41,943 bases of DNA, taken from NCBI GenBank assembly GCA_017936885.1, contig JAGBEO010000023.1:1-41943 (forward strand), given 5' to 3'. A program made the translations under genes and the position numbers. This DNA comes from Lachnospiraceae bacterium. GTDB taxonomy: Bacteria; Bacillota; Clostridia; Lachnospirales; Lachnospiraceae. Below, piece after piece: positions 5,374 to 14,002 of this stretch; position 1 is the first letter of the stretch, and each line of letters starts with the position of its first letter. The notes under the pieces are model-generated. The model worked only from the letters and a program-made list of their open reading frames with translations, was not told the DNA's origin and made no database searches.

Positions 5374-6911
5374 TTATTCAAACTTTCTGTCATACAACAG
5401 TGCCGCAATCAGCACCACAAAGCAAGACCCCGCATTATGTACCAACGCTCCCGTGGTAGGATTCAGTATTCCCGTCACCGACAAAACCACAGCAATGAAA
5501 TTGATGCACATGGAAAGTGTAATGCTGCACTTGATCGTTTCCGTGGCGTCGGAAAGCTGCTTCAAATACGGGATTTTGGAGATATCATCGCTCATTAAGG
5601 CAATGTCCGCGGCTTCTACGGCAATATCGCTTCCCATACTGCCCATAGCAACGCCAACACTTGCGGCTTTCAAAGCCGGGGCATCATTGACGCCGTCACC
5701 GATCATACATACGTTTTTGTTTTCAGCCTGCAGGCTTGTAATATTCTCAACCTTCTCTTCCGGCAGAAGCTCCGCACGGATTTCGGTAATACCAACCTGG
5801 CTTGCCAAATACGCGGCAGTCCTTTGGTTATCGCCCGTGAGTAATACTGTTTTGACCTGCATGGCAGTCATTTTGGATACCATGTTTTTCACTTCCGGGC
5901 GCACCACATCGGAAAGAGCGATCAGACCGAGACAACGCTCACGATCCGCAATGAGAATGGGTGCCTTTCCCTGGATACGCAGTTTTTCTAATGCAATAGC
6001 AACCGTATCTGTTATGACAATACCGTTCTCGACCAAAAATTTTTCATTTCCGCAGAACAGATCCCTATTATAAACTCTTGCAAAAATACCTCTCCCGGTT
6101 GTCATTTTAAAGTCATCGGATTCCCTGATCTCTACGTTGCGCTTCCGGGCACAGGAAACGATTGCCTTGCCGAGAGGATGCTCACTCTTTACTTCGGCAG
6201 ATGCCGCTAAGGATAACAACAAACTTTCGTCAATCGTTTCATCAAACGACAGAATATCACAGACTTCCAGCCTGCCATAGGTAAGGGTTTCCGTTTTGTC
6301 AAAGGCAATGGTATCCACCTTACCCATTTTTTCAAGCGCTTCCCCCGATTTAATAATGACGCCATGTTTGGTTGCCTGTCCGATGGCAGCCATAATTGCC
6401 ATAGGCGCCTTCTTATTTTCCGCTTCCTGTACCATACGAATAAGTTTCTGCAGCCCGGTAAAATGCGCAGAATGTCATCCCGGCATATTTCTTCAGCGGC
6501 TATCCTTTCCTCTTGCCCCTCTATGATCCTTCTGCCCTGTGTGGGTGTCAGACGAATGAGCTTTTTCAGACCTTTCTTAGCCCGGTCAGTGGTCATATCC
6601 TCAAGAATCGCGCCCAGCGCCATAATAAAAGCCACCTCGCCTGCGGCAAACAGATCGCCAATGGCGATAGCCGCAAACATGGCAATGGAGATCAGTAATG
6701 CCGATGAAACCTTGCTGATACCCGGATTATAGATGATTCTCCATATGGCAAGATACAAAAGCGGAACTCCACTGATGATGACTGCCACCCATGCAGGATC
6801 AACAGGCAGTTGTGCGCCCATCTTTGCCAGCCCAAAGCTTATAACCAGAAACACACCGCTGACCAGTGTTGCAGGAACACCGGCGAGTAAATCATTGATC
6901 TTCTTTAACAT
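5374..6911 (-). pseudogene. P1B-type heavy-metal ATPase remnant
   Basis: The frame starting at 6911 reads the first membrane segments and GEVAFIMALGAILED, then reaches RILPG. At about 6450 it jumps to LQKLIRMVQEAENKKAPM in another frame, losing about 50 residues that normally hold the actuator TGES motif. The next residues, AIMAAIGQATKHGVII, follow directly, so a second segment with the CPC metal-binding helix (about 55 residues) is also missing. The rest is well preserved: SEHPLGKA, TGDN, MIGDGVNDAPA, HNAGS. The phosphorylation motif reads DKTET instead of DKTGT. The product would be a Zn/Cd/Co-type exporter if intact, but it cannot be functional now. Confidence 0.9.
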
Positions 6912-7054: not shown

Positions 7055-8828
7055 TTACCATGACATATAAATGGTATTCGTATCCTGCTTTAATCTCATA
7101 TCACTTGTATTAGTCGGATGATTACAGCCTCTGCACAGCGGCACGATGCAAACCACATCTCCGGCATTCAGCGTCCGGCTATGCTGATCATATAATACAT
7201 GTGCTCCATCAGCATTAGCGCAGCTGCCGCAGACAGCGCATGATGCTGCTCTTCCATTATTGCAAAGATCTTTCCAAAGCGAAATCCAGCTTTTATTTAC
7301 GACATTTCCCTGTATATCCACAAACTTATCACTGCCTGTACCCTGCGCATTGGAAATATAATTCGGATTCGCTGATAATAATTCTCCTACATCAAGAAAT
7401 TTCGAAGTAAAATTATAGGTTTTACCGTCTGCCTGCTCTACAAACAGTTCCCTACAATTCTTCCAAATAACACTCTTTACTTCCGGCGGATATACGATCA
7501 CACCGCCCAATACATAGGCTACCTTATCCTGCAGATCGGTTCCCATGGAAGGCATCGGCGCAGAGAGTGTGATGGTTGCCGTATTGCTTGACGTATCAAT
7601 CGTACAATTCTGCACACTGTAATTGTGTGTGGACGATGAAATTCCAAAACCGAAGAAATCAATATCCAACTCGCTTCTATGCGTAAAACATTCCGTTACC
7701 ATAGAGATATTTGCATGGGTAATCGTCATTGTGATAACCGGAACCTGACTGATGACAAATTCCTTCATACGGTTCACTTTCCCGTCCGCTCCAAATAATT
7801 CTTCTACTTTAAATTCATCGTTTTGAAGCTGATAACCGTTCACGTCTTTTCCTGTTTTATTTTTAATTTCATCTAACAGATTTTCGTCATACCAGCCTTT
7901 CATGCCATCTGCACTTGCCAGTGCCGGAGTCGCATCCAGCGTTGTTACTCCGCGATACTCCATGATAATTGACACTGTGGAAGACGAAGTAGTCAATGAA
8001 TTCAGCGTATATCTGGTGTCTGATTTGATGAAAAAACATATGGGCAAAGGAATCACAAATGCCGCCTGATGATCGATCGACAACGAACTCTGCGTCTCCG
8101 AAAAGTCAGAGAACTCAAGATCTATTGTCATCTTATTATCTTCTGCACTCAGTTCATTGTATATCTGATTTACATCCGCCGTACTGTACCCGACGGAATA
8201 ATTTGCTGCATCGATCTGTACCCCAGCGTTGCTTTTGGAGGGATTCTTCATATTATCAATGAGCTGCTTCACATAATTTATGGCATCCAGTTCCCTGCTT
8301 GTCATTTCAATATACTTTGCATTGTGGCTGAGAAATGTATTATACTGCGCAGCCAATGTCGGATATATATTCTGAAAGTCTTTATCCTCCTTATGTGCAT
8401 TCACAAAACCGATGATCTCGATCAACGGGTTCTGCGGATTCTGAATATCCCCAACCTCATCCTTGTATGCGCTGACAAGATCCTGTGAAGTAAGCATTGC
8501 TTCTGTTTTCAGTTGATCTAACGTACTCTGATTTCGAATACTGAAAACTCGTATCCGCCAAAATCTTCTGATACAGGGTTGAAAATAATTCTTTTCTAAA
8601 ACCAGCCTGTCCATCATCATCAAAAACGAGCATGGTATCAACATCCTGCAATGTTTTTTGATTGTAATACCCCATGCTACCATAAGTGACTCCCCAATGA
8701 AATCCCTGCGGCGCAACAACGGTCTTGAAATCTCCTTCCAATTTTGCCGCTAACAACTGATTGACCTTTTTTTCCAGTTCCGCACGAAATTCACTTTTTG
8801 CCATTTCGTTTGTTTCATTTTTCTTCAT
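7055..8828 (-). pseudogene. Unknown protein with C-terminal HNH-like zinc motif, frameshifted
   Basis: Two overlapping frames make one gene of about 590 codons. The first starts at ATG 8828 (AGGAGG 9 bases upstream; MKKNETNEMAKSEF) and continues to about 8535. The second runs from there to 7055. Removing one base from the TTT at 8532-8534 joins them as SFQYSNQSTLDQLKTEAM. The N-terminal part has repeated charged helices. The middle has beta-rich Ser/Thr stretches. The end has CAVCGSC, GAHVL, VVCIVPLCRGCNH, which resembles an HNH-type zinc site. There is no signal peptide. I do not recognise the family. The frameshift may be real or a sequence error. Confidence 0.6.
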
Positions 8829-9034
8829 AGACACAGTCCTCCTTTATCTTTGTAGTTTCATCACAATGCATACATTTGGATTTGTCAAGGTATTCCTGAA
8901 AAAAGATTTTGACAGCTATAAAACGCAAAATATTTGTTAATGTACTTCTTTTAAGCAACTATTTAGGTCATTTCTCCTTGAATGAAACCATAAAAAGGAG
9001 TACAATTTTATTAAATACGAGAGAAGGTATCAAT

Positions 9035-10482: not shown

Positions 10483-10504
10483 GTTATGTTATTGTACAGA
10501 TCCT

Positions 10505-10750
10505 CTAACTGCTGATCTGGCGCCCTTCATGATCCAAATGGTAATTATCCTTATAAATCAACTCTGAAATCGGGACTAATTCATATCCTTGGTCCTGCAA
10601 GGTCGTAATCAGGGTTTCCAGCGCATCCGCTGTATATTTAGCGCCGTTATGACATAAAATGATGCTGCCGTTTCCCAGATGTTTGTGCTGTGTTACGGTC
10701 TGGATGATGGAATCTACACCGTAGTCCTTCCAGTCGAGAGAATCAACATC
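10505..10750 (-). pseudogene. Displaced 3' end of the polysaccharide deacetylase gene
   Basis: This 246-bp segment encodes the last ~81 codons of a polysaccharide deacetylase, from VDSLDW to ...RQISS and the TAG stop. It matches 12914-13159 without gaps at 233 of 246 positions. All 13 differences are synonymous. The similarity starts exactly at the stop codon and ends at 10750, where unrelated AT-rich DNA begins. No start codon or upstream coding part is present. It keeps the junction with the convergent chemoreceptor, so it is probably the original 3' end of the resident gene. Confidence 0.9.
10728..10747 (+). other. Candidate attachment-site core, left copy
   Basis: The 20-bp sequence TTCCAGTCGAGAGAATCAAC is identical at 10728-10747 and 13137-13156. 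It lies at the gene-inner edge of the duplicated segment, where crossover should occur if the 3' end was swapped. It codes for the conserved VDSLDW motif. The assignment is by analogy with icd-type integration. Confidence 0.4.
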
Positions 10751-11028
10751 TGATACACTTGTAAAGTTAAATAGTGAATAGATTCCTTTCTTCTATATTG
10801 TTGTGGGGATTATATCAGAGAGAAAATGGGATTACAAGGAATATTTATTATTTGTTCCAGAAATTGATATTTAAGCTAGGTAACATCTTCATAGCATATA
10901 ATATCCTATTTACACTGTTATCACACTTTTCAAATTATGACAATTTAATTATGGTTAATTGGAAAATGAAAATGGCTTCGATTTTTTCAATGACATAACC
11001 GTTTGATTTGTCATCTTATTCGTTCCAT

Positions 11029-11670
11029 TTAACCCATTATGTTTCTATAAATTTCTTCTACTTCTTCAGGATTTGTTAAAAACCACTCTTTACCTGGAGA
11101 GTCCTTTATTTGTTTTTTTCTTAATTTCAAAATATTATGTATCGTTGCTTCTAGTGCTACCGAATTATTACATTTTATAATTAATGCAACATGTGGTTTT
11201 TCAGGAAAACAAGTTCCTATTTGAGAATAGATTCTTTGAAGAGGAGATCTATCTGTTCTACCAATCTTACATGCATAATAAGCACTTTTTTGTAAATGCG
11301 ATAATTCTTTATATGATTCATAATAATATAAATAAATTGAATTGTCTCCTTCTCCTATTATTTTATCAGCAGTATAAGTTTCCATCACTTCATCCACTGT
11401 AGTCTCAATTTTACAAATCTCTTTTTTAGAATAAGCTAAAGTCCATACACCATATCCTTTGTTCTTCAGCCCTTCATCCTTCAGCAAACTGCAAGCTTTC
11501 TTGAACACAGCCGCATAATCTTTATCTTCTATAATACCACCATTGTTTTTCCAATAATCACATATTGTATTTACTGCATTCTTTCTCTCAAATTGCTTTC
11601 CATCAAATAGCTCAATAAGTAAATCCTTAAACTCATTAGGTGTTAATTTTAGTCCTTGTATGTCTTTCAT
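11029..11670 (-). CDS. T5orf172 / GIY-YIG-like domain protein
   Basis: A 213-residue protein with AAAGGAAAAG upstream. The C-terminal ~100 residues match the T5orf172 (Mug113, GIY-YIG superfamily) pattern: SIYLYYYESY, then ACKIGRTDRSPLQRIYSQIG, VALIIKCNN, a conserved Glu in ALEATIHNIL, and GKEWFLTNPEEV. The N-terminal ~90 residues look helical and may bind DNA. T5orf172 proteins are found in phages and accessory islands, and nuclease activity is presumed rather than shown for most. It lies inside the repeat-bounded insert. Positions 10751-11028 contain no supportable gene. Confidence 0.7.
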   Translation of the reverse strand: MKDIQGLKLTPNEFKDLLIELFDGKQFERKNAVNTICDYWKNNGGIIEDKDYAAVFKKACSLLKDEGLKNKGYGVWTLAYSKKEICKIETTVDEVMETYTADKIIGEGDNSIYLYYYESYKELSHLQKSAYYACKIGRTDRSPLQRIYSQIGTCFPEKPHVALIIKCNNSVALEATIHNILKLRKKQIKDSPGKEWFLTNPEEVEEIYRNIMG

Positions 11671-11890
11671 CCTTCTATCTTTTCCTTTCAGATCAAAATT
11701 TGTACATGCAATCAGCCCTATTCAGTAAATAGTTTATAAAATTGTACCACAAGCAAAAGATTTATCATTCTAATTTCACCAATATTGCCATATCATGAGC
11801 AAACGTCAGATATTCGTTTTTGTACTTATGCTTAATCGAAAATTTGTTAATACAAAATCCATTTTTATCATTATTGAAGAAGTGAAAAAT

Positions 11891-11918
11891 AAGACCTCTG
11901 AATTTAATCATAGGTCTT
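11891..11918 (-). terminator. Intrinsic terminator of the GNAT operon
   Basis: On the minus strand AAGACCT and AGGTCTT form a 7-bp stem around a 14-base loop, followed by ATTTTTC. The stem overlaps the GNAT stop codon. From here to 11670 no gene is seen. Confidence 0.6.
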
Positions 11919-12495
11919 ACTCTATCCCAAAAATACTATATATATTATCATTGATCACTAAATACATTGGTGTGCATTTTCCCAATTCGTCATCTTCTTC
12001 ATAGGGTATTATAAATTCTGTTGCATCAACAAAATTTTTTCTTCTGTATAATTTTTCTCCATTCGCATTTGCCCTAAGAAAAATACCGGTAAACCCTATC
12101 GTTTTTGTTGACAATTCATATATATCCATCAGCAATATTTCAAAGAATACTGTACTATAGTATTTTTCAACGCCCAGCTTACCTGTCTTTGCCTTTTGAA
12201 ATGCCTTAGTAATCGCAAAGTATTTTATCTCTGCACATGATGCACTGAACATACAATTTGAATCTTCTTTTGAATAATATAGTGCTGTTGCTTTCAATGT
12301 AACAAAGGCAAATACTGTTGTTATTCCAGACTCTTCTTCATTCTCATCAATTAAAACATATGTAACTCCATTACCACTATTAGCACATTCTATTGCTTCT
12401 GCACTCAAAAAATCATTAAAGTCAGGATGCCCACAATCGAACTTATCCAAGACATCCTGACTTATATTCGCATTTGCCAATTCAACATATTTCAT
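11917..12495 (-). CDS. GNAT acetyltransferase, probable toxin of a toxin-antitoxin pair
   Basis: A 192-residue protein. The N-terminal FDCGHPDFNDFL resembles the F-x-C-G-x(3)-L-N-D-x-L start of TacT/AtaT-like GNAT toxins. It is followed by a core with FAFVTLKATAL, a beta-4-like EIKYFAI and a late GEKLYRRKNFV, where acetyl-CoA and substrate loops usually lie. TacT-type toxins acetylate aminoacyl-tRNA. The start ATG overlaps the TAA of the upstream small gene (TAATG), so translation is coupled. The toxin role is inferred from motif and operon order; it could also be an ordinary GNAT enzyme. Confidence 0.65.
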   Translation of the reverse strand: MKYVELANANISQDVLDKFDCGHPDFNDFLSAEAIECANSGNGVTYVLIDENEEESGITTVFAFVTLKATALYYSKEDSNCMFSASCAEIKYFAITKAFQKAKTGKLGVEKYYSTVFFEILLMDIYELSTKTIGFTGIFLRANANGEKLYRRKNFVDATEFIIPYEEDDELGKCTPMYLVINDNIYSIFGIE

Positions 12496-12683
12496 TAGTC
12501 ATTATCACCATTACACATTTTTTTCATTTTCTCGATATCAGAAGATGAAAAAATATCTCTTGATGCTGCACATTCATTCCAATATTCTTCTGTAACTTTC
12601 TGTGCGCACAATTCATTTAAAAATGATGATAACATACCCTTTTTAATAATTGTTGCTTCATTGGGTTTGATTGCCATAGCCAT
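12495..12683 (-). CDS. Small protein upstream of GNAT, candidate antitoxin
   Basis: A 62-residue protein (MAMAIKPNEATIIKKGML...) starting at ATG 12683, 8 bases after a perfect AAAGGAGG. A longer form from ATG 12725 (76 residues, AAGGTGG upstream) is possible. It precedes the GNAT gene in a TAATG overlap, as antitoxin genes typically do. It is acidic at the C-terminus and I do not recognise the family; it is not an obvious DUF1778 protein. A 26-bp inverted repeat upstream could be its operator. Confidence 0.6.
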   Translation of the reverse strand: MAMAIKPNEATIIKKGMLSSFLNELCAQKVTEEYWNECAASRDIFSSSDIEKMKKMCNGDND

Positions 12684-12757
12684 ATTTCCATCCTCCTTTG
12701 CACTTTTTTCCTTACTCTTATCCATATTATACCACCTTTTTATTTACTTTCATAGAT

Positions 12758-12799
12758 AGTATAATACCCAAACATCAAAGAAATAACTTTTTCTTTGAT
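12758..12799 (-). promoter_or_regulatory. Promoter element and operator-like palindrome of the GNAT operon
   Basis: At 12774-12799 ATCAAAGAAA and TTTCTTTGAT form a perfect 10-bp inverted repeat around TAACTT. A TATACT -10 candidate (12758-12763) follows on the minus strand, with a poor -35 (TTATTT, 17 bases away) that would overlap the palindrome. Overlap of palindrome and promoter suits autoregulation by the small protein or the pair. Positions 12800-12913 hold no gene. Confidence 0.5.
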
Positions 12800-12913
12800 A
12801 GTTATTGTACATTAAACGTTACAGAGGTGCAAGAAATTTTACATATAATATTCCTCCGTGTTATAAAGACACACATCTGTTTTTCAAATTTTCATATTAC
12901 CTCATGTTATTCA

Positions 12914-13159
12914 CTAACTGCTGATCTGGCGTCCTTCATGATCCAAATGATAATTATCCTTATAGATCAATTCCGAAATGGGCACTAATTCATATCCTTG
13001 GTCCTGCAAAGTCGTAATCAGGGTTTCCAACGCATCCGCTGTATATTTAGCACCGTTATGACATAAAATGATACTGCCGTTTCCCAGATGTTTGTGCTGT
13101 GTTACGGTCTGGATGATGGAATCTACACCGTAGTCTTTCCAGTCGAGAGAATCAACGTC
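12914..13159. repeat. Right copy of the 246-bp direct repeat
   Basis: This is the 3' end of the intact deacetylase gene, matched by 10505-10750 with 13 synonymous differences and no gaps. It probably arrived with the insert and replaced the original end. Confidence 0.9.
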
Positions 13160-13918
13160 CCACTGAATCGGATAATATCCACAGGCTTTTGCTGTTTTTA
13201 TGACATCATTGTCATAATCCCCATAAGGCGGACGGAATAGAAACATCTCATATCCGGTCAGTTCCTGCACCTTTCTATGTACTGCCATTAACTCTTCTTT
13301 GCACTCCTCATCGGAAAGCTGAGACATATTCTTGTGGTTCTCGCTGTGATTGCCCAGGTCATGACCGGCTGCCAGAATCGCTTTCACATCATCTGGGTAA
13401 GCTTCCACCCATCCCCCTGTCATAAAAAACGTCACCTTAACATTGTGCTTCCTCAAAATCTCCAAAATCGTAGCCGTATCCTCATTTCCCCAAGCCGCAT
13501 CAAAGCTGAGCGCCACCTGCTTTTTATCGGTCTCCACACAGTAAATCGGCAGTTCCCTGCCTCCTACCGTGTTGCTGACCGTAATAGAATCAGGAAGCAC
13601 TCTCGCCACCCCCTGGATCAGGGCTATCGTTGCTAACACAAACGCCGCCGACTTTACCGCCTGCATAATCACATTGCGATAGAAAACCTCCTTCTTTCGT
13701 TCTTCCTTCGTCTGTACTTTCTGCCCTTCACAGCTTCCGCCGCAATACTGGCCATATCCCCGTTGTTTTTCTCTCTCAGCATTCCATGCTTCCACCTGCT
13801 CACGCCTTGGCCATTGTTCCTCTTTCGTTCTGCCGTGCCTATCCGAAAACACCTGTCTTTCCAATTCTCCAAGTGCCAATTCGATTTTCTCACTCCATGA
13901 TTTCTGCTTTTTGGCCAT
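12914..13918 (-). CDS. Membrane-anchored polysaccharide deacetylase
   Basis: A 334-residue protein starting at ATG 13918 (GCAGGG upstream; MAKKQKSWSEK). Residues 1-80 are charged and cytoplasmic, with a CGGSC cluster. One membrane segment (about 83-107) precedes an extracellular NodB domain. Visible NodB motifs are SFDAAWG (138-144), the metal-binding GNHSENH (189-195), RPPYGDYD and DVDSLDW. Members remove N-acetyl groups from peptidoglycan or related glycans using a divalent metal. Its last 82 codons lie in the duplicated segment. It follows the membrane-protein gene by 84 bp, so they are probably co-transcribed. Confidence 0.9.
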   Translation of the reverse strand: MAKKQKSWSEKIELALGELERQVFSDRHGRTKEEQWPRREQVEAWNAEREKQRGYGQYCGGSCEGQKVQTKEERKKEVFYRNVIMQAVKSAAFVLATIALIQGVARVLPDSITVSNTVGGRELPIYCVETDKKQVALSFDAAWGNEDTATILEILRKHNVKVTFFMTGGWVEAYPDDVKAILAAGHDLGNHSENHKNMSQLSDEECKEELMAVHRKVQELTGYEMFLFRPPYGDYDNDVIKTAKACGYYPIQWDVDSLDWKDYGVDSIIQTVTQHKHLGNGSIILCHNGAKYTADALETLITTLQDQGYELVPISELIYKDNYHLDHEGRQISS

Positions 13919-14002
13919 AATAATACCCTGCACTTTTTTGTTACTAAAGTATATGCAGGGTATCTCACATTTTGTTATCAATTTTGCAGAAGGACATGCT
14001 TT

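Follow-up and report, generated by a model that had tools for sequence, protein, structure and literature searches.

The window analysed here is a 41,943 nucleotide (nt) stretch of DNA from a Lachnospiraceae bacterium (GenBank assembly GCA_017936885.1, contig JAGBEO010000023.1, positions 1 to 41,943 of the forward strand). It carries a polysaccharide deacetylase gene whose 3' end is present twice, with a small block of AT-rich DNA between the two copies. Judged by comparison with related genomes, this arrangement is an insertion, and it lies at a site that serine integrases occupy in relatives. The best explanation, in which we have moderate confidence, is that an element encoding a serine integrase split the gene, that the gene end of a relative later restored it, and that the integrase side of the element was lost. 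Genomes and loci are cited below by G and L numbers, respectively, G000 being the window's own genome.

The repeated gene end and the empty site

The target gene and its surroundings comprise the following features:

12914..13981 (- strand): whole polysaccharide deacetylase gene (PdaB/NodB type), the target gene; a 355-codon open reading frame (ORF) matching Polysacc_deac_1 (E-value: 1e-36)
12914..13159 (- strand): right copy of the deacetylase 3' end, the copy in use; 94.7% identical to the left copy
10505..10750 (- strand): left copy, the stranded old 3' end of the host gene, facing the chemoreceptor gene; recognized by alignment and by synteny with the empty site of L031
8909..10438 (+ strand): chemoreceptor gene, the native neighbour of the left copy; recognized as an ORF, by family search and by synteny

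The deacetylase scores 218.8 bits against the PdaB model TIGR02764, below the cut-off of 237.4. An earlier reading, made from the letters of the window and its ORFs (the sequence-only reading), had reported that the last 246 bp of the gene occur twice in direct orientation, and our alignment agrees with this in every detail: it spans 246 nt without gaps at an offset of 2409 bp, and 13 codons differ, all of them synonymously (13/13). At one limit of the repeat, the first codon upstream encodes Trp in the whole gene and Ser in the left copy. The other limit is the stop codon, past which there is no clear similarity. The spacer has a G+C content of 28-33% and the flanks of about 41-50%, and family searches of the window ORFs detected no recombinase in the insert, so the description of the cargo as AT-rich and without a recombinase also holds.

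Under random change in the repeat, the expected synonymous share is 24.4% (computed with transitions weighted 2), for which 13 of 13 gives p = 1e-8. On this calculation, chance is not an option as the source of the pattern. When the state common to at least three of four close, in-register relatives is taken as old, five changes are derived on the right copy, three on the left copy and five are ambiguous. As all 13 changes are synonymous, both copies were coding sequences during their divergence. Although the left copy lacks a start codon of its own, its changes are silent; because of this, and because the expected synonymous share is so low, the divergence must have taken place in different genomes.

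G057 and G103 are the two closest relatives by deacetylase gene. In G057 (L031), the DNA beginning 12 bp after the deacetylase stop codon is 81% identical to the window from position 10504 down to the chemoreceptor gene. Because the site is empty in this genome, the left copy can be identified as the old gene end of the host, stranded opposite the chemoreceptor gene as first proposed. A tandem duplication within the window genome, without mobile DNA, would also yield copies in direct orientation. The synonymous nature of all 13 changes (including the three on the left copy, which has no start), the AT-rich spacer, the empty site in G057 and the element end shared with other species (see below) effectively refute it, and it is the least credible of the explanations considered. 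The sequence-only reading had likewise dismissed a decayed tandem duplication in favour of copies selected in different genomes, a view that these comparisons bear out.

Site C and the shared element end

The insertion in the window sits at codons D-S-L-D-W, at about amino acid (aa) 277 of the deacetylase. This position is designated site C; in the window it reads CAGTGGGACGTTGATTCTCTCGACTGG, and relatives vary there. Three further features are placed with respect to it:

13152..13153 (- strand): putative crossover dinucleotide GA of site C in the whole gene, placed from the junctions of split genes
10743..10744 (- strand): the same putative GA at the junction between element and stranded end, placed likewise
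10752..10841 (- strand): element end (P arm), directly against the stranded end; recognized by matches in other species

The P arm is 79-83% identical over 71-72 bp in G003, G016, G037, G039 and G058, and 77% identical over 108 bp in G041. These matches adjoin stranded 3' ends in all but G016, where the match lies at a contig end. At 1e-8, nine of the 77 genus genomes match the insert, six of them via the P-arm end; the remaining three are G000 itself, G103 (right flank) and G112 (the GIY-YIG gene described below). Matches to a P-arm profile of four ends, including that of the window, abut the stranded end wherever a locus contains the two; the exception is L172, which has a partial match beyond the stranded end. 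The base at which the P arm meets the stranded end is identical across genomes. A promoter-like site in the P arm was left unused, as such sites number 16 compared with 15.8 in shuffled sequences.

G037, G039 and G058 also have a serine integrase at site C, and in G112 a second P-arm family lies on the same contig as a site-C integrase, about 18 kb apart. Because the window insert encodes no integrase, it is a remnant or a dependent form and not an autonomous site-C element.

Insertions in the deacetylase gene within the genus

A search with the deacetylase against 98 relatives gave matches in 85 at 1e-40, and a second search used aa 150-355 against the 77 genus genomes. The gene is interrupted in three regions. 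At site A (about aa 166) it is split in at least 14 genomes, site B (aa 190-207, with crossover points B1 and B2) is used in at least 13, and stranded ends at site C (aa 277) occur in at least 15. Counted by eye among the matches listed, at least 37 of the 77 genus genomes show a trace of insertion; this tally includes sites seen from one side only (e.g. G001 and G003) and excludes G043. In the latter (L139), the deacetylase match stops at about aa 311 beside a serine recombinase of another type, and this position is perhaps a fourth target region.

Wherever both ends of a split gene lie in one fetched genus locus, the gap contains a large serine recombinase (14/14). Conversely, no integrase was found in the interval between whole gene and stranded end in ten genomes, counting genome copies once: the window, L011/L041, L018/L043, L035, L038, L058, L059, L061, L083 and L107. 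Within this set, L083 and L107 contribute short or weak pieces, and the piece of L018/L043 is interrupted by a gap. The sequence-only reading had named three observations that would speak for an insertion: an empty single-copy site, different cargo between the two repeats, and larger forms that encode a recombinase. All three occur in relatives, the first in G057 and the last at site C.

In L040, L045 and L055, the deacetylase is followed by a block matching the DUF3990 region of L041/L043, and a stranded end was not found in these loci. Because L040 keeps a partial P arm, it is suggested that these are old insertions with a decayed second gene end. Two small integrase elements were also observed in deacetylase genes. 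One encodes a protein with Rep_OBD and RNA_helicase domains (L131, 5296-6549) and the other a protein with weak Viral_Rep and RNA_helicase matches below cut-off (L132, 7393-8496); both proteins resemble the Reps of small circular DNA replicons.

Site-C integrases across the order

The integrase of L131 has Resolvase, Recombinase and zinc-ribbon domains, and both site-C integrases that were domain-scanned in relatives are Resolvase/Recombinase serine types. Six sequences, the query included, match the L131 integrase at 49% identity or more, and all six are at site C. The seventh match (45%) is in the window's own genome (G000:C10, L163), near a Mob_Pre gene at another locus. As it lies elsewhere and on a side branch of the integrase tree, it was set aside as the enzyme of the window insert, on which it may still act.

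An alignment of seven integrases (A1) gave matches in 86 of 392 genomes at 1e-80. When 29 loci from outside the window's own genome were inspected, a deacetylase fragment with its start or its end at aa 275-286 was found beside the integrase in 21 loci across the order (one of which, L219, is also in A1) and was absent from eight. A tree of 48 recombinases separates those of site C, which group in one of its halves, from those of sites A and B.

In G432, terminase and portal genes lie about 11-15 kb after the site-C integrase (38 kb examined, with the other gene half outside), and the deacetylase gene of G479 is interrupted twice, at site A and at site C (the last gene part being outside the stretch examined). 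Between the site A pieces of G479, inside the inserted DNA, a GerA-type spore germination gene and its neighbours were observed (L249, 3055-7108). Phage and plasmid records searched at 1e-40 contain distant relatives of the integrases only, from two phages (32-35%) and seven plasmids (up to 39.5%).

Whole genes with stranded ends in relatives

In the six loci compared, the whole end and the stranded end differ by 3.8-7.2% and never by zero. The identity of the pair is 94.3% in G114, 96.2% in G106, 92.8% in G025 and 96.2% in G009, compared with 94.7% in the window; in G010, it is 94.6% for the nearer copy and 88.2% for the farther one. In-frame codon comparison covers the window, G114 and G106, with 13, 10 and 8 silent and 0, 3 and 1 changed codons, respectively (G009 and G010 gave no in-frame pair). 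A longer element in G023 ends in DNA that is 97.4% identical to the G009 remnant, which is 1.37 kb in length and carries an Abi_2 gene. The start of the remnant falls within a 304-aa ORF, which is thereby cut, and lies 54 bp past the restored stop codon. By this comparison, the whole-gene form of G009 is visibly a truncated longer element.

Units are stacked in three genomes: G010 has three copies of the gene end, G114 has two P arms with the second gene end truncated, and G112 has three P arms (two of them partial) with one recognizable stranded end. Cargo of toxin-antitoxin or abortive infection type recurs (ParE/Phd, ParE/RelB, PIN, HepT with nucleotidyltransferase, DUF3990 and Abi_2), and other kinds include an AMP-binding enzyme (G114), a phosphorylase-family protein (G106), a redox-type protein (L058) and a metallo-hydrolase (L110).

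These loci also bear on the possibility that the window is an assembly artefact joining two strains. The assembly consists of 36 contigs, and in several relatives a contig break falls near the site, as might be expected of such an artefact. The same architecture, with its own cargo, was however assembled in other genomes, with the P arm joined to the stranded end at one and the same base. An artefact is therefore very improbable.

Proposed restoration of the split gene

In the mechanism that we propose, the D-S-L-D-W codons serve as attachment site for large serine integrases of one clade, and an element from this clade would have inserted into the window gene and cut it. Later, a 3' end from a closely related strain would have made the gene complete again, and the integrase side of the element would have been lost in the same step or afterwards. 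Left over would be a GNAT-type toxin-antitoxin candidate, a GIY-YIG protein, the P arm and then the old stranded end. The lost integrase would have belonged to the site-C clade, and the new gene end would have arrived after insertion by one-sided homologous recombination that removed the integrase side. Natural transformation is known to involve recombination of this one-sided kind. Because integrase-bearing forms split the gene and the G009 form is truncated, the inserting element probably did not contain the new end, which would have been added later.

An element of the e14/icd type, with a replacement gene end from the outset and an integrase that was lost later, would lead to the same outcome, a whole gene with a stranded old end. 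Among the fetched loci, no integrase lies between whole gene and stranded end, and we consider this origin quite unlikely. It was the comparison drawn by the sequence-only reading, of which the outcome, the site-specific insertion and the gene end from outside stand, while the mechanism and the enzyme are not supported: the integrases seen at this site are of the large serine type, and the fetched forms that bear them split the gene instead of bringing a replacement end.

Several observations weigh against restoration of the gene as proposed above. First, the insert has neither an integrase nor a P' arm, and its enzyme is assigned via about 90 bp of shared end. Second, the P arm and the site-C integrase are on different contigs in G037, G039 and G058. 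This break weakens the link between the two, and the neighbouring genes of G058 make up for it in part, as its integrase contig carries genes with 78-93% identity to the ones that precede the P arm in G037 and G003. Third, the search with the L131 integrase found no site-C integrase in G003, G016 or G041, and G030, with both ends and the integrase in one locus, has a P arm of another family. Fourth, nine clade members in the tree have no adjacent deacetylase (the eight loci mentioned above and that of G000, located away from the deacetylase gene of its own genome). Fifth, we infer the restoring recombination from the sequences compared here, and assemblies of metagenome-assembled genomes may hide or break copies. 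Finally, the compact order of gene end, toxin-antitoxin genes and P arm recurs, stacked in G010, G114 and G112, with cargo of toxin-antitoxin or abortive infection type repeated across loci. These recurring stacked units look more like the insertion of ready-made units, and together with the repeated cargo they fit a cassette system about as well.

In a cassette system, the unit of gene 3' end, cargo and P arm would be a mobile circle without an integrase, inserted at site C by the integrase of another element, and after every insertion the gene would still be whole and the site free to accept a further unit, similarly to an integron array. Besides the stacked units, the toxin-antitoxin type cargo in several species, the P arms common to units with different cargo and the related integrase in the window's own genome are consistent with this. 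However, the site of such a unit would be P.B', which is of attR type, and serine integrases use attR-type sites poorly without a directionality factor (as excerpted from PMC3783163); restoration is preferred for this reason. In addition, the G009 unit is a truncated longer element, and the cargo is partly not of toxin-antitoxin type (the AMP-binding enzyme of G114 and the phosphorylase-family protein of G106). Insertion of the window unit as a cassette thus seems possible but unlikely. Somewhat more doubtful is the broader proposal of a natural serine-integrase cassette system, whose units would insert serially, restore both gene and site, and build arrays downstream of a sporulation-type gene.

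Cargo of the insert and other genes of the window

Three ORFs of the insert were judged gene-like, weaker family matches being left unused. These and the DNA next to the right copy are as follows:

12495..12725 (- strand): 76-aa ORF, candidate antitoxin by position only; no significant family
11917..12495 (- strand): 192-aa GNAT-like protein, candidate toxin; matches to PDB 6g96 and to plasmid records
11029..11670 (- strand): 213-aa protein with a T5orf172/MUG113 (GIY-YIG type) domain; Pfam and PADLOC matches
12804..12905 (- strand): DNA directly after the stop codon of the right copy; 92% identical to the post-deacetylase DNA of G103 (L033)

The insert is probably a small block of candidate toxin-antitoxin genes between two gene ends. 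The 192-aa protein has no Pfam family match. It weakly resembles the acetyltransferase of PDB 6g96 (E-value: 0.005; residues 18-78, FDCG..L..FL) and has three relatives in plasmid records (best 29% at an E-value of 2e-8), two of which are annotated as N-acetyltransferases (E-values: 2e-3 and 9e-3). At 1e-10, it has no match outside G000 in 250 family genomes, one of them another genome of the same genus. The 213-aa protein matches T5orf172 and MUG113 in Pfam (E-values: 9e-12 and 6e-10) and, in PADLOC, the candidate defence family PDC-S57 (E-value: 9e-5), and a relative occurs in G112. Viral contigs were scanned with peptide patterns for the GNAT-like protein, the G037 integrase and the deacetylase; such patterns detect close relatives only, and none came up. 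The G103 contig ends in the flank that matches window positions 12804..12905. In the same locus (L033, 7005-7249), about 130 bp with hairpin-like repeats, as judged by eye, are inserted in the flank shared with the window.

Two other regions of the window, both on the - strand, contain overlapping ORFs. At 5374-6911, an ORF of 353 aa with a HAD hydrolase domain and one of 234 aa without a family resemble parts of one gene with a frame break and a missing middle, which we take from the DKTETLT motif to encode a metal-transporting ATPase. At 7055-8834, ORFs of 554 and 125 aa match no Pfam family at 0.001 and may be one gene broken by a frameshift.

Significance and comparison with known systems

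It is already known that serine integrases insert in the 3' region of rlmH and that serine-recombinase elements split sporulation genes (as described in parts of PMC6222049, PMC10747680 and PMC5595907). Among the titles listed by our literature searches, none reports that such enzymes use a deacetylase gene at several att positions or leave remnants with a second gene end there. The word "deacetylase" does not occur in the main text of PMC10747680 or PMC5595907, nor in that of a large integrase survey (PMC10083194), where the target may stand in the supplementary tables. What the present comparison adds is a single gene that serves as the landing site for several serine integrases (A, B1, B2 and C) in roughly half of the species covered from one gut genus, with site C used across families of the order. 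These loci supply ready sets of integrase, attP and attB, and offer a case for studying how hosts recover a split gene. If the deacetylase acts in sporulation, it is also a candidate for regulated excision in uncultured spore formers.

The elements e14 and phage 21 use a tyrosine integrase in icd and bring both their own gene end and the integrase. As with these, the window has a whole gene made with a new 3' end and an old end left stranded; unlike these, its insert has no recombinase beside the gene end. Integron cassette arrays consist of serial units at one site, often with toxin-antitoxin cargo, the newest lying next to the fixed gene. Serial units and frequent toxin-antitoxin cargo at one site are found here as well, but the part that the units share is a gene end plus a P arm.

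The SCC/ECC elements use Ccr recombinases, a family different from the site-C integrases. Here, the target is a deacetylase gene and the window insert has no recombinase; forms with an integrase, moreover, interrupt the gene far from its end, and the gene end present in whole-gene forms amounts to about 80 codons. SCC/ECC elements encode Ccr serine recombinases and insert in the 3' region of rlmH, and the likeness to the present elements lies in the large serine recombinases, the target near the 3' end of a conserved gene, the direct repeats and, for some composite elements, the several att sites (excerpts of PMC6222049).

The gene-intervening elements of sporulation genes include skin (sigK), SPbeta (spsM), vfbin (spoVFB), gin (gerE) and yin (yabG), which, like the elements described here, are serine-recombinase elements splitting genes in spore formers (parts of PMC10747680 and PMC5595907). 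The likeness may extend to the target, as the deacetylase resembles PdaB, although below the model cut-off, and SpoIVA is present in 71 of the 77 genus genomes. In contrast to skin-type elements, several integrase types use three regions of one gene, and whole-gene remnants carry a second gene end; the gene in the window is whole, and excision would not be needed.

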